Assembly (NCBI GenBank): GCA_001789205.1
Contig: MFYT01000064.1
Location: 65,401-129,400 of the forward strand
Direction: 5' to 3'
DNA length: 64,000 nt
Source: Candidatus Raymondbacteria bacterium RIFOXYA2_FULL_49_16
Lineage (GTDB): Bacteria; Fibrobacterota; OXYB2-FULL-49-7; XYB2-FULL-49-35
The translations under genes and the position numbers were made by a program. The notes below the pieces were generated by a model. The model saw only the letters and a list, made by a program, of their open reading frames with translations, was not told the DNA's origin and made no database searches. Shown here in pieces: positions 27,841 through 63,543 of this stretch (position 1 is the first letter of the stretch; each line of letters opens with the position of its first letter).

Positions 27841-28962
27841 TCATCTCAATAATACCGCTTTCCGGGAGATGGTGTTGCGTCCAACGGTCAAACAGATATG
27901 GTAAATACCGCTTGCCATAGTATCCGCATCCCATATCAACGAGCCCATGCCATGAACCTTGGCAGAATACACAAGAGATCCTGAATGGGAAAAAACATCC
28001 AGCGAACCATGGTTTGAATGATTTCCCGCAGCATAAAATATCACTGTGTTTCCATTAAACGGGTTTGGTGCGTTGCTGCATGATAATTTTAAATTGCCGG
28101 AAGCGCCATCACGTCTTTCGGCCTTGTCTGTTCTAGCAATGTCCCCATAAAGGACCAGATGAACGGTGTTGCCGTCGCTGGTCCACGGGGAATCAGAGCC
28201 GTTTATACACGCTCCTCCGCATGGCTGGTATTGCCAGGAACATGTCTCATCACCGTAGAGGCATGCCATGCCATAATTATTGGCACCAACCTTGACCAGA
28301 AAGACTATACCGAAATTTCCCCGATTCGAAAGGATATACCGTACCTGGTTTGTGACTTCTATTCTCCGGAACCTCTTGTCGAGTACAGATGGCAAAGGAT
28401 AACCCTGCAACCGTCCATTTTGTCCAAAAATGGTATCAAGCGTTGTTGTCCCGTTTATAAGGCATGGGGAATCATAATACAGACCATCAGCCGACATATT
28501 GATCCAGAGTGCGTTTTCGGGGATATTTTCCGCGCCACGGTATCGTCGAATCCCCCCGGAAACATCCGCCACGCCGATCTGCATGGCGATCTGGCCCGCC
28601 GTATTCCACGCGTTGCCCGCCATCCATCCGTCGGTCACTTCACCGCAGAGAAACGCCGAATCAACAGAGCCATTCAAAGTGGAATCATCAAGGTTTATGG
28701 ACCAAAATCCAGCGCTGAATCCATGCCAGGCGCCAGGCCCGCCGCCGACCATGAAACCCGCGTCGTTGTACTGCACTGATTCCGAATGAAAACTGGTGAC
28801 TATTTTCCCTTCGTGGACAATTGTGCCTTGAGGAAGTGAGGGCCCTGGATTGGAGGTGAGATCATACCCGTTTGTGAGAGCTTTATACCAAAAGACATGA
28901 ACGCCCTGAACTGCACAACAATAAGAGAAAACGCAAAATATCGCGGCGGTTATTTTTATCAT
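27841..28962 (-). CDS. Secreted protein with C-terminal type IX-style sorting domain (paralogue A)
   Basis: 373 residues: signal peptide (KITAAIFCVFSYCCAVQG), a ~270-residue domain of unknown function starting HVFWYKALTNGYDL and containing GPGAWHGFSAGFWSINLDDSTLNG, and a C-terminal module APNPFNGNTVIFY...SGIYHICLTVG..RKAVLLR. The last ~80 residues match the Ig-like sorting domain used by type IX secretion cargo. About 40-45% of positions by eye are shared with the gene just upstream (29001-30137), a tandem duplicate. No catalytic motif; the repeated aromatic beta pattern could be a carbohydrate-binding jelly roll. Confidence 0.75.
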   Translation of the reverse strand: MIKITAAIFCVFSYCCAVQGVHVFWYKALTNGYDLTSNPGPSLPQGTIVHEGKIVTSFHSESVQYNDAGFMVGGGPGAWHGFSAGFWSINLDDSTLNGSVDSAFLCGEVTDGWMAGNAWNTAGQIAMQIGVADVSGGIRRYRGAENIPENALWINMSADGLYYDSPCLINGTTTLDTIFGQNGRLQGYPLPSVLDKRFRRIEVTNQVRYILSNRGNFGIVFLVKVGANNYGMACLYGDETCSWQYQPCGGACINGSDSPWTSDGNTVHLVLYGDIARTDKAERRDGASGNLKLSCSNAPNPFNGNTVIFYAAGNHSNHGSLDVFSHSGSLVYSAKVHGMGSLIWDADTMASGIYHICLTVGRNTISRKAVLLR

Positions 28963-29000: not shown

Positions 29001-30137
29001 TTATTTTTGAAGGAAGACTCTCTTTGACAACGTTTTATTCCCAACATGCGTACAAATCACATATACTCCGCCCGGCAGGTTTGCAGCTTTCCATAGAAAG
29101 CCATCCGCAACTTTTGAAAGAGGCGTGTCAAATGCGTGGACGCACATCCCTTTGATGTCATAAATCCTGAATATGACATTCCTGATGTTCCCACCCTTTC
29201 GCACGTTTTCCAAGGAAATAGTCGTCGATGGATTGAATGGATTTGGTGCGATATTGAGATGTATGTCCTCGTTCGCTCCAGGGACCTTTTTCTGAACAGC
29301 AACTCCGTTGGTAAGGTCTCCATACGCCACCACATGCACCGTATTGCCGTCCTCGGTCCATGGATTATCGGAGCCGTTAACGTTAATCAATGTTTTTTCA
29401 TAGGTAAAATTGCGGTCTTCGTCAGCATAAAGGTTGAATTTTCCCGTGCTTCCCTGGTTCGAAGGAACAAGGAATACTATTGCAAATTCACCACTGTTCG
29501 CCAGGATATAATTTACCTGTTTCGTAATAGTGAGCCTAAGAAACTGCCCGTCAAGCGATGATGGCATATTGACGGAAAGTCTTCCATTCAGACCATCAAC
29601 GGACAACATCGTATCGGTCCCCGGAATAGTAGGAAGAGTGTAATTCAAAGTACCAAAACTTATATCTTTCCATTCCGTATTTTCAGGAATTTCATTGCGG
29701 CCCCACATAGATATCCCAAAGGAAACATCAACAACGCCGCATTTGATATGTATCGGACCTGTATTATTATAGCTGTCCTCTGTCCATCCGTCCCGCACTT
29801 CACCAACAGCAAACGCCGAATCAACCCTTCCGGTCATTGCGGAGTCATTGAGGTCTTTTGACCATATGGCGGCACTCCATGCCTGCCAGTCGCCCGTGGC
29901 CGACCCAACGACAAAATGCGGCAAATCATAGCCATGGCCATTGGAATACGTTGCCGACACGATCATGCCCTCGTGCACGATTGCGTCTGAAGGAATACCG
30001 GGTCCAGGGTTGTTTTCAGCCAGCGCATATCCACTCAACAGCGCCTTGTACCAAAAAACATGGGGTTCCTGCGCTTCTGATACTATGGCGATGAACGCCG
30101 CCACGCTAAAAATGACGATTACGTGTTTTTTTAACAT
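29001..30137 (-). CDS. Secreted protein with C-terminal type IX-style sorting domain (paralogue B)
   Basis: 378 residues: signal peptide (KKHVIVIFSVAAFIAIVSEA), the same unknown domain as the downstream neighbour (PHVFWYKALLSGYAL, TGDWQAWSAAIWSKDLNDS, GSDNPWTEDGNTVHVVAYGD), and the sorting module APNPFNPSTTISL...IYDIKGMCV...PGGVYVICTHVG..LSKRVFLQK. A ribosome site AAAGGAG-like sequence precedes the ATG. The gene pair arose by tandem duplication; this copy keeps the standard NPFNPSTTI motif, while the other has NPFNGNTVI. Function unknown; extracellular. Confidence 0.77.
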   Translation of the reverse strand: MLKKHVIVIFSVAAFIAIVSEAQEPHVFWYKALLSGYALAENNPGPGIPSDAIVHEGMIVSATYSNGHGYDLPHFVVGSATGDWQAWSAAIWSKDLNDSAMTGRVDSAFAVGEVRDGWTEDSYNNTGPIHIKCGVVDVSFGISMWGRNEIPENTEWKDISFGTLNYTLPTIPGTDTMLSVDGLNGRLSVNMPSSLDGQFLRLTITKQVNYILANSGEFAIVFLVPSNQGSTGKFNLYADEDRNFTYEKTLINVNGSDNPWTEDGNTVHVVAYGDLTNGVAVQKKVPGANEDIHLNIAPNPFNPSTTISLENVRKGGNIRNVIFRIYDIKGMCVHAFDTPLSKVADGFLWKAANLPGGVYVICTHVGNKTLSKRVFLQK

Positions 30138-30193: not shown

Positions 30194-31720
30194 TCACTTA
30201 ATCAGCAGCAGACTTTTCTCATATATTACTTTTTGCTCCTTGACACGCAACAGATATAATCCGCTCGCAAGGTCTCGTGCGTTCCAGACAAAGCCAGCGG
30301 TGCGCTGGGAGAAACCAGCGATAAATTGCTGGATCAATTTGCCGCGAGTGTTATATACGCCAAGCTCTATGTCAGGGTCGTTAACGTCTAATCCTTGTAT
30401 TTTTATCACAGTTAACGGATTAAACGGGTTTGGAAAAGCGGTAATAGAAATGCTACGCGTATTATTATCATTCCTTTTCTCGCTCAATGCTGGATCCATG
30501 ATGCTAAACACATGTACGATCGGTTTTTTATTGTCCCAACCGTCATTGCTTTTTCCTTCCAAAATATATACCAGTCCGCGTTCACGGTCATACGAACCGC
30601 CGTCAATGGGGCTTTGGAAACATATAGCATCGGGATTTGTGAACAAAAAATCCCGTACATCCCATATCGCGTAAGGAGCCAGATTAGGCGCTTTCTCCTT
30701 TTTTGCCACAGATGCGAGATCCTCAGGACTGTAAAAGAGGATCTCGGTCTTGCACCTCCTGCCCTGCGGACCTTGGGTGCGACCACATTCCGGATCTGTT
30801 CCATACCATGTTGAATCACAATTACCTCCGGCTATTATGACCGCTGTTTTATGGCCCGCCGTAAGCCACTCGGCCATGGACCAGCCTGCTGATATGCCGG
30901 AATAACTTGGCCATGCATTGGATTCTGGATAGTGAAGCAGTTCCACCGCCGGCACATCAGCGTCGAACGAGGGGGGATTTCCCCATGCCCATGGCGCACA
31001 TGCGTATAAATTTGGACCGCGCGAGTCGCTTCCTTGTCCCCACCGATAACGTCCTGTGGCAAGGTTCATTCCCTGTACATTGCTATCAGCCCAGTCTGAC
31101 GGGATTTCGCACATATAGCCCGCGGTCCTCGTGTTTGGAAAATTGGCGATGTTCCACAAGGACGTTGGAGCAGGGTTCGAAAGATCAAGGTCAAACCATC
31201 CGTGCGAAGGTCCATCATTATACTCCCAGTATTTCGGCCAGGTAATGTGCATTTTAGCCTTGTTCTGTGAACCCTGCGCTGGAAGATAGCAGACATCACC
31301 AACACGTTCCTGGTCCGTTGGCGTATATCCCGGGGGTAAGATATTAACTGGAAGCGCAGTAACGCTTGCCACAGGAAGAGAGTCAAAACATTTAGTGGCG
31401 GAAATAACAGGCGCTGGGATACTTACTTCGCCAACCGCATACTGTTGATAGAGGTATAAAGATCCCGGATACCCATCGTTAGGGCCGTTTGAGTCTCCTT
31501 TGGGACAATACCCAACAGCGCCGATTCGCAATGCTGCCCATAAACGCGGCATCCGGAAAGCGCCTTTATATACTAGGTCTCTTGGATACAATAGTTCAGC
31601 ATGAATGGAAACAACGCCAATGGTCATGCAAAGAAACCATGGTAAAACAAAACAAACAAGCAGTATTTTGTGCAGAGGCGTCTTTTTTTCAGGACAATCC
31701 AACGTATAATACAACCGCAT
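30194..31720 (-). CDS. Large secreted protein with C-terminal type IX-style sorting domain, unknown function
   Basis: 508 residues from the ATG preceded by GGAGGAGG (complement of 31727-31734); an upstream in-frame ATG at 31771 lacks a site. Hydrophobic signal (KILLVCFVLPWFLCMTIGVV, about 19-38). The mature body has aromatic-rich motifs (DLVYKGAFRMPRLW, DGYPGSLYLYQQYAVGEVSIP, IIAGGNCDSTWYG, GGSYDRERGLVYILEG) suggesting a beta propeller or jelly roll, and ends with AFPNPFNPLTVIKI...VYNTRGKLI...ASGLYLLRVKEQ. No enzyme motif recognised. Middle gene of the secretion island. Confidence 0.75.
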   Translation of the reverse strand: MRLYYTLDCPEKKTPLHKILLVCFVLPWFLCMTIGVVSIHAELLYPRDLVYKGAFRMPRLWAALRIGAVGYCPKGDSNGPNDGYPGSLYLYQQYAVGEVSIPAPVISATKCFDSLPVASVTALPVNILPPGYTPTDQERVGDVCYLPAQGSQNKAKMHITWPKYWEYNDGPSHGWFDLDLSNPAPTSLWNIANFPNTRTAGYMCEIPSDWADSNVQGMNLATGRYRWGQGSDSRGPNLYACAPWAWGNPPSFDADVPAVELLHYPESNAWPSYSGISAGWSMAEWLTAGHKTAVIIAGGNCDSTWYGTDPECGRTQGPQGRRCKTEILFYSPEDLASVAKKEKAPNLAPYAIWDVRDFLFTNPDAICFQSPIDGGSYDRERGLVYILEGKSNDGWDNKKPIVHVFSIMDPALSEKRNDNNTRSISITAFPNPFNPLTVIKIQGLDVNDPDIELGVYNTRGKLIQQFIAGFSQRTAGFVWNARDLASGLYLLRVKEQKVIYEKSLLLIK

Positions 31721-31784
31721 AAGACGCCTCCTCCATGAATAATACCATATATAGAAATCCCTTGAGACCATTATTCTGGAACGC

Positions 31785-33035
31785 TCATTTTAAAAACAAC
31801 ATCTTTCCCGTCATTCTTTTCACATTATCATCAATGGTATACATATATATTCCGCCTGCAACGGAATTCCCCGCTTTATCCGCGCCATTCCATAACGCTT
31901 TTGAATTATTGGCCTTTAATGTCTTAATGACATTTCCTCTAACATCATAGATGGAAATATCAGCGTTTCTTTTCAGGCCAGAATAACAAATGGTTGTTGC
32001 CGGATTAAATGGGTTGGGCTGCACAATAGCCGAAAAGGGCGACGGTTCATCGGTCCTTATGTCATCAGTGGAGATTGGCGATTCCATGAGCTTGAATGAA
32101 GGGTAAAAATATGACTCCGTGGAATGGTAATGATCCGTTTCCGCGAATCCATAATAATCTTTATGCCACCTGCAATCCGGAGACTCGGCCGTACTCGCAT
32201 ATGCGCCTTGCTGCCATAAGGTGCTGCTTCTGATATCTCTGTCCGTGGTAATCGTTCCCATGCCGAAAACCGCTCCGCTGTTGAAAGCATGGGGGCATGC
32301 ACCCGAACGCATCGCATCATTAAAAAAAGCAAAGGGTACGAACACCTCCAGGCCAAATTCTTTTTTACTCGTATCCATCGCGGTAATCGCGAACGCAATA
32401 TTATCGATTGACCTCGAACCGCTCGGATAGCTTTCCACACATGACTCGGGGCCGCCGCCGATAAAACCACTTACTTTAAAAACACACGCCTTAAATTTCT
32501 CCGGGCAGAAATTCAGCATTATTTTATAGACAAATCCCCCATTGTACGGGTTCTTTTCAAGGTTGCATGGGTCGAAACAGAATTCAATGCCTTCGTAGCC
32601 CCAAAAATTCTCCCATGCGGTGCATGCCTTGATGGTATAATATGAATCGTCATACCGTTTCGCCGCAATGTAGAGGCCCCGGCCTGTTTTCCAAAGCATG
32701 GCAACATCGGCCTGCTGGTCATTTGTGCCGGTATAATTATATGTACCCCCATTCTCTATGATGTTTGACGGATCTGTAATGTCCCATTTACAGAAATCAA
32801 ACCACGTTACACCCTTGTTCAAAGGATTAAACACGGAAACCCACGACGGCTCATTCAATATGCCATCAACGACAATATCTTCATTGGGTTGAAAGACTTC
32901 ATATGCCCTAAAATCTGGACTTGCCGTATCCCATCTGGCCCGCCATTCTTCAATGTATTCTACCGGAGGGCATACAAAACCAAATGACGCGCAATAAAAA
33001 ATAAATTTGAACAGTATGGCGAATAGCGGTCTCAT
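31785..33035 (-). CDS. Secreted CBM9/DOMON-like carbohydrate-binding protein with sorting domain
   Basis: 416 residues with ribosome site AAAAAGGAAG before the ATG. After the signal peptide, residues about 45-260 match the CBM9-1 pattern: an N-terminal DGILNEPSW block, AMLWKTGRGLYIAAKRYDDSY, EGIEFCFDPCN, and FGLEVFVPFAFFN. CBM9 binds reducing ends of glucans and xylans; DOMON-like relatives also bind heme or sugars. The C-terminus has QPNPFNPATTICY...IYDVRGNVIKTL...AGGIYMYTIDD. Expected at the cell surface, perhaps as a glycan-binding protein of this cluster. Confidence 0.8.
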   Translation of the reverse strand: MRPLFAILFKFIFYCASFGFVCPPVEYIEEWRARWDTASPDFRAYEVFQPNEDIVVDGILNEPSWVSVFNPLNKGVTWFDFCKWDITDPSNIIENGGTYNYTGTNDQQADVAMLWKTGRGLYIAAKRYDDSYYTIKACTAWENFWGYEGIEFCFDPCNLEKNPYNGGFVYKIMLNFCPEKFKACVFKVSGFIGGGPESCVESYPSGSRSIDNIAFAITAMDTSKKEFGLEVFVPFAFFNDAMRSGACPHAFNSGAVFGMGTITTDRDIRSSTLWQQGAYASTAESPDCRWHKDYYGFAETDHYHSTESYFYPSFKLMESPISTDDIRTDEPSPFSAIVQPNPFNPATTICYSGLKRNADISIYDVRGNVIKTLKANNSKALWNGADKAGNSVAGGIYMYTIDDNVKRMTGKMLFLK

Positions 33036-33086: not shown

Positions 33087-33248
33087 TTACCATACTTCGG
33101 CTACGATTTCGTGTGAAAGGTCGCGCAGGACCTTTCCATGAGCGCCGGCTGTTACTGTTATCGAGAAGGTCTGTCCGTTGACTGCCACAACAAAGGTAAA
33201 AATGCACGCAATTGTTGTTCCAATCAAAAAATTGAATGGTTTTTCCAT
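33087..33248 (-). pseudogene. Short secreted reading frame, probable remnant of a larger gene
   Basis: 53 codons from the ATG at 33248 (GGGGA ribosome site) encode a convincing signal peptide (FLIGTTIACIFTFVVAVNG) and then FSITVTAGAHGKV, which resembles the start of bacterial Ig-like/InlB-type repeats, before a stop at 33087. In another frame immediately after, GNSAVVSVNAGHD continues the typical VSVNAG pattern of such repeats, suggesting a frameshift. It lies 101 bases downstream of a two-copy operator-like array and ends 51 bases before the CBM9 gene. Could instead be a true short leader protein. Confidence 0.4.
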
Positions 33249-33348
33249 TGTAGTCCCCATTTCTCCCATATTTTAAAAATAATTGGAAAAAGAAGCGCAT
33301 CAATCCCATTTCGGATTTATATATATCACCAATCAGGAAATAACACCC

Positions 33349-33381
33349 GCATTTCTGGAAACTGCTGGCATTTCTGGAAAA
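33349..33381 (-). promoter_or_regulatory. Operator-like direct repeats, array 1
   Basis: Two exact copies of GCATTTCTGGAAA at 33349-33361 and 33369-33381 (+ strand reading), spaced 20 bases start to start. That is about two helix turns, the usual arrangement for AraC-family activators. The array lies ~100 bases upstream of the first start codon of the 33.2-27.8 kb transcription unit. Confidence 0.6.
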
Positions 33382-33454
33382 TGCATCAAAATAAGATGGT
33401 TTTACTCAAAATTTCCGGTGAACATAGTATCATTGATCTAGCAAAAACATGATA

Positions 33455-35611
33455 CTACTTAACCAATGAGGCGTATTTAATGATTTTCCCATTTCTATTT
33501 CTGGCGACAATGACATAAATACCGCTTGCATATTTCGATGCATTCCAATCATATTCCGTAAAATCGTGTGCGATTGTTCTTGTTGCTTCCAGTTTTTCAA
33601 CGAGATTCCCTTTAATATCATGTATTTGCACCGTGCCATAGTGCTGATTGATGAATTCGTTTGCCGGGCAGCGGTCCGAACCTCGGCTTTTAATAGTTAT
33701 TACAGTATGAGGATTGAACGGATTTGGATTAATGTCCATGTCAAACATTTCTATTATAGCGCCTCGTTTTTGGGTTTTAATTATCCCTGAATCAGTGACA
33801 ATGATTCCCAGTTCATTGCCCTGGGGTGATACGCTGAACCCCTCTATTGTAAAAAGACCATCTTCATCGGCTTCCACCGTGCCTGATTGGATAGGGATGG
33901 CTTCTCCAATGGCCGTGTTTTTCCAATAAAATTGCGTGTGTGGAAAATGCAAAAGGCGCTGCAACCGTCTTGGAGTAATGTCCACCGTAACTGTTTGAGG
34001 CCCTGCATAATCGGGAATATCGCTTCGAGAACCAGTGTCGAGTTTCAAGGTTGTGCTCAATAAAAGCGCGCTGTCCACTGGGGCGCTCACAACAGGATTT
34101 TCCATCGTTGACCATAGTATGCGGGCGTTGCATTGCCCCGTATCATGGCACAGCGCATTTATACATGCGGCGGAAAGCGTATCGTCGCTTGCGGCGTTTT
34201 TTAAGGCGAGGACAAAATGATTTCTGCCTACTTTTCCGCACGGATTGTGCCCCATATACACCGGTTCGTGCCCATTGTCGGACCAGCCGCCGGCATAGGG
34301 CATGCCATATCGGGCAAAGCTATTGCTCCCGTGATCGGACCAAATGGGGGCGCCTTGTTCTGTCCAACTCACAATGCCGTCCTGCGTCCCATTGGAAAAA
34401 TGATAAAAAGGTACTGTGTCGTTTTTAAATATCCGGGGGATAATACTGTCCCTGACATTGGCCCATGAGTTCGAACGAAGGTCCACTGCTTTATTGCCAA
34501 TAAGCCTGCTATTGTCTATTAGATCTCTGCATTCCAGGCTTTGATCGATCCCCCACATGATGCCATCGGAATTCATTATTGATTGATTGCCGTTTGTCAC
34601 ACTGGCAACCGCTTCGATGTATGCGAAAATATCCGGATGGTGCGCTGCGAAGGTAAATGACCCGCTGCCTCCCATGGAACCTCCTTTGAGACACACCCAG
34701 TTGTCATCGGCGATCCAAGGGGCATTCCCTGAACATAACCATCTGATTGCGCACCAATTGCGGTATTCGGTGTAATTGAACACGATGCTATGCGAACCAG
34801 GCCTTCTTCTGTTTGTGAGCGAATCGGCATATCCAAAATGCCAACTGAGATAAGGGTCGTCAAAATAGATCCGCAGATTGCTTTTTTTGACTTCTTCTGA
34901 TCCAATGGCGTCGGAGTTCTTTATGCTAGCTGCCGCACCGTCTATCCAGGCGCTGAAATAATCACCTCTGCCGTGCAGATCGCAGAACAGCCTTTTTTTT
35001 ACGCCTTTCCATTCCTTTTTTGCGGCAATGTATATAGGATACGCGTATCCTTCCAGTTGTTTGTTCCATTTATCAAACGGCATCCAGAACATGAATACAT
35101 GGCCGGAGCTGTCTTCGGAACACGCCTGTTCCACCGGACTGACCATCAGGCATTCTTGTTCGCTGACCGGGCCAACGGTATTCATGGTGTTCAGTATGGT
35201 ATCTTCGCGGCCGTCCGTGACCGCGGTTATTGCGTAATAAAAATCCCCGCCGCCACTGTCCTGGCATGTCCAAACGAGCAGTTCTTGTTCCCGTGCAAGG
35301 GGAACGCCCAGATATTGAATCCTGAAAAAACCGGTTCCAAGCGCCGCTTTTAGCTTACCGTTGTTCAAATCAGCGAAATGTTTTATATACGTGGAACCTG
35401 AGTCTATCTGCGCTATTCTTTTTGCTTCAATAAGGTCTGAAGTGGTGACAGGGGTAAATGAACGGTAGATGCGATATTGCGACGCGGACGCAATGTCATT
35501 CCATGTTAAAAAAGTCTGCCCGTTTTTATGTTCGGCTTCTACATCTGCGTGTGCAGTGCCATAAAGAACAATCATATATGCTAACATGCAAAAGACCACT
35601 ATCTTTCTCAT
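33455..35611 (-). CDS. Secreted alpha/beta-hydrolase (esterase/peptidase-like) with sorting domain
   Basis: 718 residues from the second ATG (35611), which is 6 bases after AAAGGA; the first ATG (35617) is too close to it. Signal peptide, an FN3-like N-terminal domain (AEHKNGQTFLTWNDIASASQYRIYRSF), then a hydrolase domain with the nucleophile elbow GGSMGGSGS (about 310-318; Ser nucleophile), a preceding DLHGRGDYFS oxyanion-type block, and a candidate His in NGTQDGIVSW...GHEPVY. C-terminal sorting module INPNPFNPHTVITI...IHDIKGNLVEKL...ASGIYVIVA. Likely an extracellular esterase acting on polysaccharide or an ester-linked polymer. Array 2 lies 75-127 bases upstream. Confidence 0.8.
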   Translation of the reverse strand: MRKIVVFCMLAYMIVLYGTAHADVEAEHKNGQTFLTWNDIASASQYRIYRSFTPVTTSDLIEAKRIAQIDSGSTYIKHFADLNNGKLKAALGTGFFRIQYLGVPLAREQELLVWTCQDSGGGDFYYAITAVTDGREDTILNTMNTVGPVSEQECLMVSPVEQACSEDSSGHVFMFWMPFDKWNKQLEGYAYPIYIAAKKEWKGVKKRLFCDLHGRGDYFSAWIDGAAASIKNSDAIGSEEVKKSNLRIYFDDPYLSWHFGYADSLTNRRRPGSHSIVFNYTEYRNWCAIRWLCSGNAPWIADDNWVCLKGGSMGGSGSFTFAAHHPDIFAYIEAVASVTNGNQSIMNSDGIMWGIDQSLECRDLIDNSRLIGNKAVDLRSNSWANVRDSIIPRIFKNDTVPFYHFSNGTQDGIVSWTEQGAPIWSDHGSNSFARYGMPYAGGWSDNGHEPVYMGHNPCGKVGRNHFVLALKNAASDDTLSAACINALCHDTGQCNARILWSTMENPVVSAPVDSALLLSTTLKLDTGSRSDIPDYAGPQTVTVDITPRRLQRLLHFPHTQFYWKNTAIGEAIPIQSGTVEADEDGLFTIEGFSVSPQGNELGIIVTDSGIIKTQKRGAIIEMFDMDINPNPFNPHTVITIKSRGSDRCPANEFINQHYGTVQIHDIKGNLVEKLEATRTIAHDFTEYDWNASKYASGIYVIVARNRNGKIIKYASLVK

Positions 35612-35685
35612 ATGCATCCTTTCTTTATTAATGAATATAGTCCCAAACTACGCAATAACAATTGCATAAAAAACGATAAATAGGC

Positions 35686-35738
35686 GCTTTTTTGGAAAAA
35701 ACACCGGCATTTCTGGAAATCAACAGCATTTTTAGAAA
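35686..35738 (-). promoter_or_regulatory. Operator-like direct repeats, array 2
   Basis: Three related boxes on the + strand: GCTTTTTTGGAAA (from 35686), GCATTTCTGGAAA (35707-35719, identical to array 1) and GCATTTTTAGAAA (from 35726), start-to-start spacing 21 and 19 bases. The array sits between the AraC-type regulator gene and the hydrolase gene it probably controls. Confidence 0.55.
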
Positions 35739-35798
35739 AATAGTACTAGAGAAGGATCAGAACCGGCTGCTGAGCGTTGTATCGTCTGCCGGATGGGT

Positions 35799-37766
35799 TT
35801 AGGGCCTATGTTCCTTGCGATATTCGCCAGGGGTTATACCGGTCGCTTTTTTAAATACTCGATGGAAATTATTGAATCCATCAATGCCGACGGCATACGC
35901 TATTTCATTTACGCTTTTTGACGTGCTTTTTAGCAGTTCCATGGCTTTTTGAAGGCGTATATTATGCAGATGCTGTATCGGCGACAGACCGTTGACAGCC
36001 TGATATATCGAATAGAGCCTTCGTTCGCTCATATAGGCTTGTTCCGCGATTTTGTACCGGTCAAGATCCTGTTCCGCGTAATGGTCAAACAGGTATTGTT
36101 CAATCGTTTCCGCGATCTTCTTCCATTGTTCCGGAATCTTTTCCATTAAGGGCCGGCGCATAACGCGTTGCCGTATCAATAGCGCCCCCAGTGCGGCGAT
36201 GATAGCGCAAAGGACGGCCGCGTACAAAAGGCCTCGTTTTTTTTGCAGGAAAAAGAAAAGGGTCGGCAAGGCATATATTTTGCCTTTTGTATCATTGACT
36301 ATATACCCATTTACGATCCACAAGCCCTGTTCCAAATAGCCGGGCAGCCTGAATGCAAACCGCGCTTTTCCGGTCCGGGTGTTGAATGCATATTGGTCGA
36401 TAACGATAAAATCGTTGGGGTATTCGCGTGACTGGCCGTTGGGCGGGACGAGTTTCCATTCCTTTGTCGCTTCGAGACCGCTATAATATACCGAAGATCC
36501 TGAAGACAGACTGAAAATGTGGTTCATGGACCTTTTTGCGGTCCCAAAGCGGTCTGAACGTAAAAGAGGGTGTCTGGCGAATTGCACGTTTAAATCAACA
36601 TAGGTGGTTGAGTCCGATGCGATGCCGGATATTTCTATAATAACCGTATCGCCGTAAAAATAGTGGTTGGTCACCCTTTCCGAAGAAAAAGCCATGGTGG
36701 CGCCAATTGAGTTTTCTTCTATTGAATCCGTCCGTTTTGGGCTTATCATGAAAGTTCTTTGCTCCGACCATAGGGAATCGCCGGGAATTTTAACCATGTA
36801 CGAGTACATACCTCCCGGTGAAAAATCCTTGCCAAACCGCAATGTCTGGCCTGGCATGAAAACGCTGTCGCGGACTAGACGCAAAGCGGAATCGATGCGT
36901 ACGCGAACCGATGTCGTATTATCACGGCCATGGACAGTGAATGCCGGCGCCGCCGGAAACACATATTCATACTGAGCGGGAGAGAACGGTTCGACATGCG
37001 TGTCAGCGGATCCCGCTCTTTTATTTCCAATGCAAATATCATCCATGTCGCAGGATAGGAATGGCGCGTTGTTCTTATGGGTAAAACCAAAGCTTATGTT
37101 ATGATAGAAACCCAAAGTGTGCACGAGAGCGCGGCTTTTCGCTCCGGCAAGCGTACCATCGATAAAAAGCGAGTCAGTCAGTATACCGTCTCTGATCCTG
37201 AGAAAAATGCATACAGTGCACCATGTATTAAATGCAAGATGCTGCGAAAGGATCTGAAGAGGGATGTCTTCGATTGAGGACCGTATCAGAAGCTTAAGCT
37301 GTACCCGTCCGCTGTCATCGTAGGCGGCAATAAGGGCTGGATTGCAGTAATAGCCGGCTGCCGGGGGTTTCATGATCATTTCCAGAATACTGCAATACCC
37401 AGACTGAAAAGGTGTCCGCTGTTCGGACCGGTTGTTCAGCCTGATTGAGAACTGGATATAAAGCCCTCCCGCTACACTCTTTTCTTCGAGAGGCCATCGA
37501 ACAGAGCGTTGGATAAACGCCTCATTTGTATCAGCGTACAGCCGCAACCCGTTCTTTCCCCTGTGGGCCGCTTCAGGGGTAATGGAAACATTGGATTTGG
37601 AAAGGCCCCACATTTTAAGTGAAGCGGTATCTTCAAAATCATTCTTCAGAATACATTCGGGAAAGACCGGGACGGAGAACAATAAAATCACGAACAATTG
37701 GCTGATCCAGCGAGGGTTTTTCAGTATACAAAGCATAGCAAACCTAATTGAAGAGAAAATAATCAT
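35799..37766 (-). CDS. Transmembrane AraC-family transcriptional regulator with LamG-like sensor
   Basis: 655 residues: N-terminal hydrophobic signal (about 20-36), LamG/concanavalin-like extracytoplasmic domain (about 38-250; NDFEDTASLKMWG, GLRLYADTNEAFIQRS, DMDDICIGN), an Ig-like region (255-500), one transmembrane helix (GLLYAAVLCAIIAALGALLI, 512-531) and a C-terminal cytoplasmic AraC/XylS double helix-turn-helix (553-653; SVNEIAYAVGIDGFNNFHRVFKKATGITPGEYR). One-component membrane regulators of this kind sense glycans outside and bind DNA inside. Start codon uncertain (37766 or 37736). Flanked by the sulfatase upstream and the secreted hydrolase downstream. Confidence 0.88.
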   Translation of the reverse strand: MIIFSSIRFAMLCILKNPRWISQLFVILLFSVPVFPECILKNDFEDTASLKMWGLSKSNVSITPEAAHRGKNGLRLYADTNEAFIQRSVRWPLEEKSVAGGLYIQFSIRLNNRSEQRTPFQSGYCSILEMIMKPPAAGYYCNPALIAAYDDSGRVQLKLLIRSSIEDIPLQILSQHLAFNTWCTVCIFLRIRDGILTDSLFIDGTLAGAKSRALVHTLGFYHNISFGFTHKNNAPFLSCDMDDICIGNKRAGSADTHVEPFSPAQYEYVFPAAPAFTVHGRDNTTSVRVRIDSALRLVRDSVFMPGQTLRFGKDFSPGGMYSYMVKIPGDSLWSEQRTFMISPKRTDSIEENSIGATMAFSSERVTNHYFYGDTVIIEISGIASDSTTYVDLNVQFARHPLLRSDRFGTAKRSMNHIFSLSSGSSVYYSGLEATKEWKLVPPNGQSREYPNDFIVIDQYAFNTRTGKARFAFRLPGYLEQGLWIVNGYIVNDTKGKIYALPTLFFFLQKKRGLLYAAVLCAIIAALGALLIRQRVMRRPLMEKIPEQWKKIAETIEQYLFDHYAEQDLDRYKIAEQAYMSERRLYSIYQAVNGLSPIQHLHNIRLQKAMELLKSTSKSVNEIAYAVGIDGFNNFHRVFKKATGITPGEYRKEHRP

Positions 37767-62132: not shown

Positions 62133-63200
62133 TTATGCGATGAACGGTTGAACTACTATATGCTTGTGATCGACTTCTTGTCCGCTGTGCAGGGCCTCGA
62201 GCAGGGCAAAGGCCTTGTCGCCAATGTCGTACAGGGGCTTGCGCACGTTGTATTGCACCAAATGGTCGTCCCTGTCGCAGTAGTTGACACAAATGGCTGA
62301 TGCTGGGTCTATATTCATTTCCTTGAACGCGGCAAGCGCGCCCCGGGCAATGACATCTGCCTGGAAAAAATACCCGTCAAACCTTACGCCTTTTGACAAT
62401 AGTTCAAGCGCCTTTGCCTTTGCGTTCTCAATGCTGTATTCGCAGGGAACAAGCTCAATTGAAAGTCCATGGTTATGGGATTCGTTTGCAAAGGCGTCGG
62501 CAAGTTCACGTGCATAGGGTGTTATGCCCTGCCGTTCCCACGAGACCGGGCCAATAAAAGCCGCGATGCGAGTGGCATTGTGCTCGCAAAAGAGCTGGGT
62601 TGCCAGGGTTGCGGCATGGGCATTGTCGAGCGATACCTGCGGGATATTCAAATGATATCGGGCGGTTGCCGCGACAAAAGGAAGGCGCAGGGACCCAAAC
62701 CATTCAATATCGCCCACGTCGAGCGGTGAAACAATAATAAGGCCCTGGTACCGGTTTTCAGCAATCGCGTCGCGCACCACGCTGTTCTCCTCCTGCTGGA
62801 CTGACATGCCGTTGATATAGTGCACGTGAAGGCCAGTGCCCATGCGCGAGGTCTGGGTGTTCATGGCTTCCATGAGAGGGACCATGGAGTTGTCTGAGGC
62901 GGAAAAGACGTTGAAGGCAATGACCGCAACGCTGGTCAATTTGCCGCCTTGGGGAGTAATGACCTTTTCCGGGTTAATAAAAGTGCCTTTGCCCTGTTTT
63001 GGGTAGAGGTAGCCTTCCTCTGCCAGGATTTTAAAAGCTTCGTGGACTGTTGATTTACTTATGCCATAGTGTTCGGCCAGGGTCCCAAATGAGGGAAGCG
63101 GTGTATTGGGCTTGTAACGGCCCTTTTCAATGTCCTTTTTAAAGCGTTCGCAGAGTTGGTCTGATATTAATTGATTGGATTTGATGATTGATTGTACCAT
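62133..63200 (-). CDS. GntR-type winged-helix regulator with LacI-like sensor (operon gene 1)
   Basis: 355 residues from the ATG preceded by AGGAG (an ATG at 63227 lies in the tandem repeat). Winged helix 10-75 (LPSFGTLAEHYGISKSTVHEAFKILAEEGYLYPKQGKGTFI) and periplasmic-binding-protein-like effector domain (about 90-350; VAVIAFNVFS, IVSPLDVGDIEW, SLDNAHAATLATQLF, GYFFQADVIARGALAAF). Such hybrids repress sugar-utilisation operons until an intermediate binds; it should control the whole operon from its own promoter. Confidence 0.9.
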   Translation of the reverse strand: MVQSIIKSNQLISDQLCERFKKDIEKGRYKPNTPLPSFGTLAEHYGISKSTVHEAFKILAEEGYLYPKQGKGTFINPEKVITPQGGKLTSVAVIAFNVFSASDNSMVPLMEAMNTQTSRMGTGLHVHYINGMSVQQEENSVVRDAIAENRYQGLIIVSPLDVGDIEWFGSLRLPFVAATARYHLNIPQVSLDNAHAATLATQLFCEHNATRIAAFIGPVSWERQGITPYARELADAFANESHNHGLSIELVPCEYSIENAKAKALELLSKGVRFDGYFFQADVIARGALAAFKEMNIDPASAICVNYCDRDDHLVQYNVRKPLYDIGDKAFALLEALHSGQEVDHKHIVVQPFIA

Positions 63201-63209
63201 ACTGCTCCT

Positions 63210-63237
63210 GAACAATCGAACTATCAAACTATCGAAC
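63210..63237. promoter_or_regulatory. 8-bp tandem repeats at the regulator promoter, possible operator
   Basis: GAAC-AATCGAAC-TATCAAAC-TATCGAAC (+ strand), i.e. 3.5 units of 8 bases. It sits between the -10 box and the start codon of the regulator gene, so a bound repressor would block transcription. Confidence 0.5.
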
Positions 63238-63243
63238 AGTTAT

Positions 63244-63272
63244 AATATAATGAATTTAATAGGGAAAGTCAA
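63244..63272 (-). promoter_or_regulatory. Promoter of the catabolic operon
   Basis: On the minus strand, TTGACT (complement of 63267-63272), 17-base spacer, TATATT (complement of 63244-63249). Transcription would start near 63237, 36 bases before the regulator's ATG. Confidence 0.65.
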
Positions 63273-63386
63273 TATTTTATTATGAGTTTATAAGGGGTTA
63301 TGAATCAATAAATTACGTGAAAAAAGGGGGTTTTATTGCTGGTGCTAAAGGCATTTTGGTACCCTTTTTGAACCCTGGGATCTTTA

Positions 63387-63543
63387 GTTTCAGGCACCTT
63401 TTTGGTACCTGGCACCGTTTTCGTCCCTGGTACCATTGGTGCCAGGGACCATTGGTGCCAGGTACAAGATACAGACTGGTCCTCTCACGCCCTAACATTT
63501 AGTCAAAAAAACGTCCCTGGTACCATTTTGGTGCCAGGTACCT
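63387..63543. repeat. GGTACC/GGTGCC palindromic repeat cluster
   Basis: Units such as TTTTTGGTACCTGGCACC (63400-63417), GTCCCTGGTACC/GGTGCCAGGGAC (63423-63449) and CCCTGGTACCATTTTGGTGCCAGG (63514-63537) repeat GGTACC and GGTGCC with C/T variation and short spacers. Each unit forms a hairpin. No coding region overlaps. Confidence 0.75.

Follow-up and report, generated by a model that had tools for sequence, protein, structure and literature searches.

The AraC protein of Escherichia coli is a soluble arabinose-binding regulator that acts at araI through direct-repeat half-sites approximately 21 bp apart. The locus described here, within a 64,000-nucleotide stretch of a Candidatus Raymondbacteria genome (the window), shares with AraC the HTH type and the direct-repeat spacing but differs in the sequence, orientation, and number of the half-sites. 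MtlR of Pseudomonas fluorescens, an AraC/XylS-type activator, has similar 15-bp blocks at -72 to -58 and -50 to -36 of the mannitol promoter PmtlE (a step of 22), and this promoter turned constitutive when the proximal block was made like the distal one (PMC4514859). The two MtlR blocks sit where box 3 and a tentative box 4 of the present arrays do (boxes are numbered from distal to proximal). However, MtlR is treated in that study as an ordinary AraC/XylS-type protein with a two-block site, whereas the regulator at this locus is a membrane protein, and an extra distal pair of boxes is present.

The hybrid two-component systems (HTCS) of Bacteroides, of which there are many paralogs per genome, are membrane proteins that join a periplasmic sugar-sensing domain to a C-terminal AraC-type DNA-binding domain (PMC3878776). 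The operators predicted for them, direct repeats whose step averages 21 bp, lie in front of neighboring carbohydrate genes, and the similarity of their motifs follows the HTH tree (PMC3878776). The present locus likewise combines a predicted sensor, a transmembrane segment, an AraC HTH, and candidate direct-repeat operators of ~21 bp at adjacent genes. In contrast to HTCS, its regulator has no histidine kinase or receiver in the chain, its ectodomain consists of one concanavalin-type fold and a beta-rich part rather than an HTCS sensor family, its arrays comprise three to four boxes, and its cargo genes carry T9SS tails. The system thus works like HTCS but is not a member, because the defining kinase and receiver are lacking. 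SusR of Bacteroides is a membrane protein with a periplasmic sensor, a cytoplasmic DNA-binding domain, no kinase, and direct-repeat operators, and its DNA-binding domain has been described as having no significant similarity to known ones (PMC3878776). The regulator at this locus resembles SusR in being a kinase-free membrane sensor associated with direct repeats but differs in its clear AraC HTH. A search of the literature found nothing close to membrane AraC regulators with lectin domains.

The regulator and the genes behind the arrays

By its HTH, the regulator is a member of the AraC/XylS family, in an unusual one-component membrane form. The double HTH (residues 573-651) matches PF12833 with 77.1 bits (cut-off 33.6) and PF00165 with 52 bits (cut-off 26.6), and the C-terminal domain has fold matches to the DNA-binding domains of AraC, AdpA, and YesN. 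Preceding it are an N-terminal hydrophobic segment, an ectodomain (~37-247), a beta-rich region, and a transmembrane segment (~512-535), which the HTH follows almost at once. The ectodomain has concanavalin-A-like fold matches that include calreticulin, legume lectins, and the alginate lyase vAL-1, a likeness consisting of fold matches only, at ~9-15% identity. In a profile search, no kinase or receiver domain is found, and only HTH families match at E 0.01. The AlphaFold model has a mean pLDDT of 79.5 and a pTM of 0.44, with an uncertain domain arrangement. Overall, the prediction is an ectodomain of concanavalin fold joined by a single transmembrane helix to an AraC DNA-binding domain.

The gene directly behind array 1 encodes a secreted esterase-like protein (Table 1). 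Directly behind array 2 is a 53-aa ORF, probably a truncated secreted-protein gene heading the downstream operon, and the first long gene past this array starts at 33035. The 416-, 525-, and 373-aa proteins score above the NCBIfam cut-off for TIGR04183, marking a T9SS C-terminal sorting domain, and the 720- and 378-aa proteins score under it. PF18962 matches all five proteins encoded behind the arrays with E values of 1e-5 to 3e-4, below its cut-off. Genome-wide, at least 150 PF18962 (T9SS-tail) matches are scored out of 431 first-look candidates; as predicted from these matches, the T9SS secretome of the genome is very large.

At 33425-33457, shortly upstream of array 2, a perfect inverted repeat (TAGTATCAT...ATGATACTA) overlaps the 720-aa gene at its end; it is possibly a transcription end without a T run.

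Table 1. Features of the locus, with positions in the window and sequences in the sense of transcription
Feature	Position	Strand	Basis
Regulator, 655 aa, directly upstream of array 1, same strand	35799-37766	-	Profile searches, AlphaFold model
Array 1 box 1, distal, degenerate, TTTCTAAAAATGC	35726-35738	-	2 mismatches; de novo triple repeat
Array 1 box 2, exact, TTTCCAGAAATGC	35707-35719	-	Motif scan; spacing 19 to box 1
Array 1 box 3, proximal, degenerate, TTTCCAAAAAAGC	35686-35698	-	Motif scan; spacing 21 to box 2
Putative -10 hexamer TATATT, promoter of 720-aa gene	35634-35639	-	59 nt past start of box 3
Secreted esterase-like protein, 720 aa, T9SS tail, behind array 1	33455-35617	-	PF00756 22.5 bits (cut-off 22); PF18962 E 2e-5, below cut-off
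Array 2 box 1, distal, exact, TTTCCAGAAATGC	33368-33380	-	Motif scan
Array 2 box 2, exact, TTTCCAGAAATGC	33349-33361	-	Motif scan; spacing 19
Array 2 box 3, proximal, degenerate, TTTCCTGATTGGT	33328-33340	-	19,21 triple repeat
Array 2 possible degenerate box 4, tentative, AAATCCGAAATGGGAT	33303-33318	-	22 nt past box 3, beside -35 position; third-best of 65 positions
Putative -10 hexamer TATTTT, promoter 2	33276-33281	-	Distance from box 3
ORF, 53 aa, signal-peptide-like start, abrupt end, directly behind array 2	33087-33248	-	Start codon 93 nt past start of array 2 box 3
T9SS-tail protein, 416 aa, first long gene behind array 2	31785-33035	-	TIGR04183 24.3 bits (cut-off 23)
T9SS-tail protein, 525 aa, same presumed operon as 416-aa gene	30194-31771	-	TIGR04183 26.5 bits
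Protein with weak T9SS-tail match, 378 aa, presumed operon behind array 2	29001-30137	-	TIGR04183 below cut-off
T9SS-tail protein, 373 aa, presumed operon behind array 2	27841-28962	-	TIGR04183 23.8 bits

Boxes in the window and in the genome sequence

An earlier note on this DNA had placed exact copies of GCATTTCTGGAAA at 33349, 33369, and 35707, with two degenerate boxes flanking the last. In a motif scan of the window, the exact + strand copies lie at 33349-33361, 33368-33380, and 35707-35719, such that the first and last positions stand and the second copy begins at 33368 (a step of 19). The flanking boxes are present, at 35686-35698 (step of 21) and 35726-35738 (step of 19), with two mismatches each. 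Since transcription runs along the minus strand, the box in the transcription sense is TTTCCAGAAATGC. The spacing of 19-21 bases holds as well, with steps of 19 and 21 in both arrays. All the boxes named earlier exist, but each array has three, the third box of array 2 having been overlooked; a motif-blind repeat finder returns three boxes with these two steps in each window array, and the triple repeat of array 2 (19,21) has a z of 5.1 and a p of 0.0025. The proposed distance of 75-130 bases to a start codon is about right, with 81 nt (array 1) and 93 nt (array 2) between the ATG and the start of box 3, although the start codon of array 2 is that of the 53-aa ORF. No weight can be given to the partial copies claimed at 31774 and 37772, which are at background level; the window has 8 occurrences of TTCTGGAA and 7 of TCTGGAAA, complements included.

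Sites with at most three mismatches number 45 in the window as compared with 27.65 +/- 5.5 in shuffles, and 0 of 100 shuffles reach 45. The genome-wide search that the earlier note had called for does not show the motif to be frequent outside promoters, the finding that was to count against the proposal. The box has five exact copies in the genome (5.43 Mb, 112 contigs), three of which are the window copies, while the other two are single and within coding frames (C9:13063 and C39:164423). Paired boxes with the window box sequence occur nowhere else in the 5.43 Mb genome. A two-box TTTC-N3-AAA pattern with steps of 18-22 is found at about eleven distinct places genome-wide. Five of these correspond to arrays 1 and 2, the esterase promoter in C79, and the promoters downstream of AraC genes in C102 and at C39:92018; the remaining places are within reading frames (four) or intergenic (two).

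Elsewhere in the window, GGTGCC/GGTACC-type repeats with an 18-bp step (63228-63460; z 7.0) lie upstream of an ORF at 62133-63227 and are unlike the AraC arrays.

Paralogous regulators and their arrays

The genome encodes ~24 membrane-anchored AraC-type paralogs, most of which adjoin T9SS-tail genes, and the esterase-like protein has 22 matches, some being pieces of one gene. In approximately ten clusters, which represent the subfamily nearest the window regulator, the adjacent secreted-gene promoter has its own direct-repeat array. Common to these clusters are steps of ~19/21 bp, a -10-like hexamer 57-62 bp downstream, and often a degenerate fourth box. The box sequence varies by paralog (e.g., TTTCAGCAAAAAAGCCGAA / TTTCAGCAGAAAAGCCGAAAC in C90 and TTTCAGTAAAAAAGACGAA / TTTCCACAAAAAAGACGAAGC in C102), while the array geometry is shared.

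Of 10 arrays, 8 have a TANWWT hexamer 57-62 nt past box 3, a count reached in 0 of 3000 shuffles; with a stricter anchor that omits the post hoc re-anchoring of C9a, 7 have it (2 of 3000 shuffles). If this hexamer is taken as the -10 element, box 3 spans about -71 to -55. The best further match to an array's own box is found at +20 to +22 in C90, C102, and C23, and the match there is second best in C9b and third best in array 2, suggesting a tentative weak fourth box at about -50. Judged by sequence, the arrays are direct repeats at approximately two-turn spacing near the target promoter, as in AraC/XylS operators.

The promoter statistics cover the window and 40 stretches, which were selected for a regulator or an esterase paralog or, in some cases, as comparison loci. 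When 187 promoter regions are ranked with a matrix trained on the window boxes alone, the window promoter is followed by C39:92k, C102, C79, and C23, all in clusters with close AraC paralogs. The matrix scores of AraC-downstream regions (the window's excluded) differ from those of 170 others with a p of 3.5e-4, these controls being drawn from the selected stretches and not a random genome sample. The motif-blind repeat finder ranks AraC-downstream promoters at the top, mostly with steps of 19 and 21, and z reaches 4 or more in 7 of the 19 regions linked to an AraC gene, as compared with 1 of the 170 that are unlinked. The earlier proposal that the arrays are the operators of the adjacent AraC-type regulator gains support from the paralogous regulators with arrays of the same geometry, because this motif-blind test separates AraC-linked promoters from the 170 controls (Mann-Whitney p = 7e-6).

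The arrays are not uniform across clusters. That of C43 is only faint, and the alignment of boxes in the weak arrays (C9a and C43) is partly by eye. With the repeat finder, no array is detected at C38, C69, and C29, whose AraC paralogs are mostly distant ones. The C79 array precedes the esterase gene and is not directly behind the regulator, and cluster C2 has one box set common to two promoters, as in the window. Among AraC genes with a scorable upstream region, none has a high-ranking array upstream of itself; the gap upstream of the window AraC gene, 57 nt, is too short for scoring. An AraC-type regulator match at C109:14071-14565 (L044) contains one in-frame TAA and is apparently a decayed paralog.

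Box similarity tracks HTH similarity (Mantel p 0.009), with C90, C102, and C9b being alike, and tracks ectodomain similarity equally (p 0.008). Because of the latter correlation, box similarity follows the regulator phylogeny and is by itself no proof of specificity. The two correlations thus show joint divergence of regulator and operator, at the level of whole domains and boxes rather than of single residues and bases.

A search of 166 other genomes from the same phylum yields no protein with the full regulator architecture at E 1e-40; at 1e-12, the matches, in 18 of the 166, cover the HTH end only. Therefore, the expansion is private to this lineage among the genomes examined, and with no regulator ortholog in those 166, a cross-species footprint is unobtainable. 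A relaxed two-box pattern searched in 167 genomes lies mostly within frames at the few places inspected, and the regular arrays seen in G050 and G048 do not adjoin such regulators. The latter are TTTCGATAAA and TTTCAACAAA arrays with a 21-bp step, at L204 3831-3903 and L205 9016-9068 (G050) and L206 8638-8710 (G048). Both G050 copies precede near-identical small ORFs (MGGSTSSRWGKNYERRP) rather than AraC regulators.

Proposed mechanism and alternative explanations

The boxes are very probably landing sites for the neighboring membrane-anchored activator. We consider it likely, with good confidence, that the window holds two operator arrays for the membrane AraC-type activator (35799-37766), which would coactivate both promoters. 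The lectin-like ectodomain is proposed to bind an extracytoplasmic sugar ligand, and the single transmembrane helix would relay this signal to the cytoplasmic AraC domains. These domains would sit on the direct repeats along a single face of the DNA, at intervals of two helical turns. Boxes 1 and 2 may serve as strong distal sites, while box 3 (about -71 to -55) and the weak box 4 near -50 would adjoin the -35 region and recruit RNA polymerase. The assignment of strong distal and weak proximal boxes is an inference by analogy, from positional agreement with the MtlR blocks. The 720-aa esterase-like gene (array 1) and the T9SS-tail gene run from 33248 to 27841 (array 2) would thereby be switched on jointly, and sibling regulators would use the same geometry with their own box sequences. 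Observed directly are the boxes with their spacing, the arrays of the paralogs, and the constant distance to a -10-like hexamer; binding, activation rather than repression, the ligand class, and the topology are the inferred parts of this model.

The core TTTCC-R-GAAA is close to a palindrome, so a different dimeric regulator could occupy it, with one dimer per box, making the AraC gene a mere neighbor. In keeping with this, TTTCTGGAAA and TTTCCGGAAA are (nearly) palindromic, and the same pair pattern recurs at C64:30807-30836, in front of a T9SS gene, where the 20 kb around the site contain no AraC gene. However, the palindrome is lost in the C90, C102, C9b, and C23 arrays, which keep the direct-repeat geometry and the place beside an AraC paralog, and one shared regulator would not yield a separate box for each cluster; we regard this possibility as quite unlikely. 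The C64 site itself (TTTCGGAAAATTCCCTGCTTTTCAGGAAA; L213), on the same contig and outside the window, is located between two divergent T9SS-tail genes and could be an unlinked regulon member, the site of another regulator, or a chance occurrence.

It is very improbable that the window arrays are alike through promoter copying, with repeats that are ancestral and without a role, or that they are chance repeats in A+T-rich DNA. A block of 46 nt is 78% identical between 33336-33381 and 35694-35739, which is what promoter duplication would leave, but within each array the boxes are alike while the spacers differ, and unrelated paralogous clusters share both the step and the distance to a -10-like hexamer. 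The AraC-type protein might also act as a repressor or loop arrays 1 and 2, which are 2.36 kb apart, until a ligand releases it. Three to four boxes spanning about -111 to about -35 would fit such a role, as would one gene flanked by two arrays, an arrangement known from looping operators. Against this reading, a single array is usual in the paralogous clusters, the boxes lie upstream of the core promoter and not over it, and AraC-family members with such sites usually activate, as in MtlR (PMC4514859). Repression or looping is therefore judged unlikely, and activation by the neighboring regulator remains the preferred reading.

Our confidence is evenly divided on the broader proposal, namely, that the genome carries duplicated one-component, kinase-less, lectin-sensor AraC activators, each with a private array (steps of 19, 21, and 22 bp; fixed -10 phase) before its own T9SS cluster, as parallel pairs that are convergent with HTCS without a phosphorelay and are absent from the other phylum genomes examined. 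If this is true, the bacterium, whose T9SS-tail proteins number at least 150, splits part of its secretome into separately inducible modules, each controlled by a membrane-anchored sensor and its private operator array, and direct signaling from ectodomain to AraC domain without a kinase is in large-scale use outside Bacteroides. The approximately ten pairs with the same geometry and different boxes constitute a natural data set for AraC regulator-operator change after duplication, and the sensor-array pairs are a possible source of mutually independent inducible promoters.

Several esterase paralogs (L091 2557-4224; L098 6758-8470; L103 9083-10840 and 5640-6689; L102 10086-11141) adjoin other types of regulator. 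These are AraC-HTH proteins of ~555-585 aa without a transmembrane segment and a family of ~350-aa proteins, which suggests regulator exchange at similar secreted-gene clusters.
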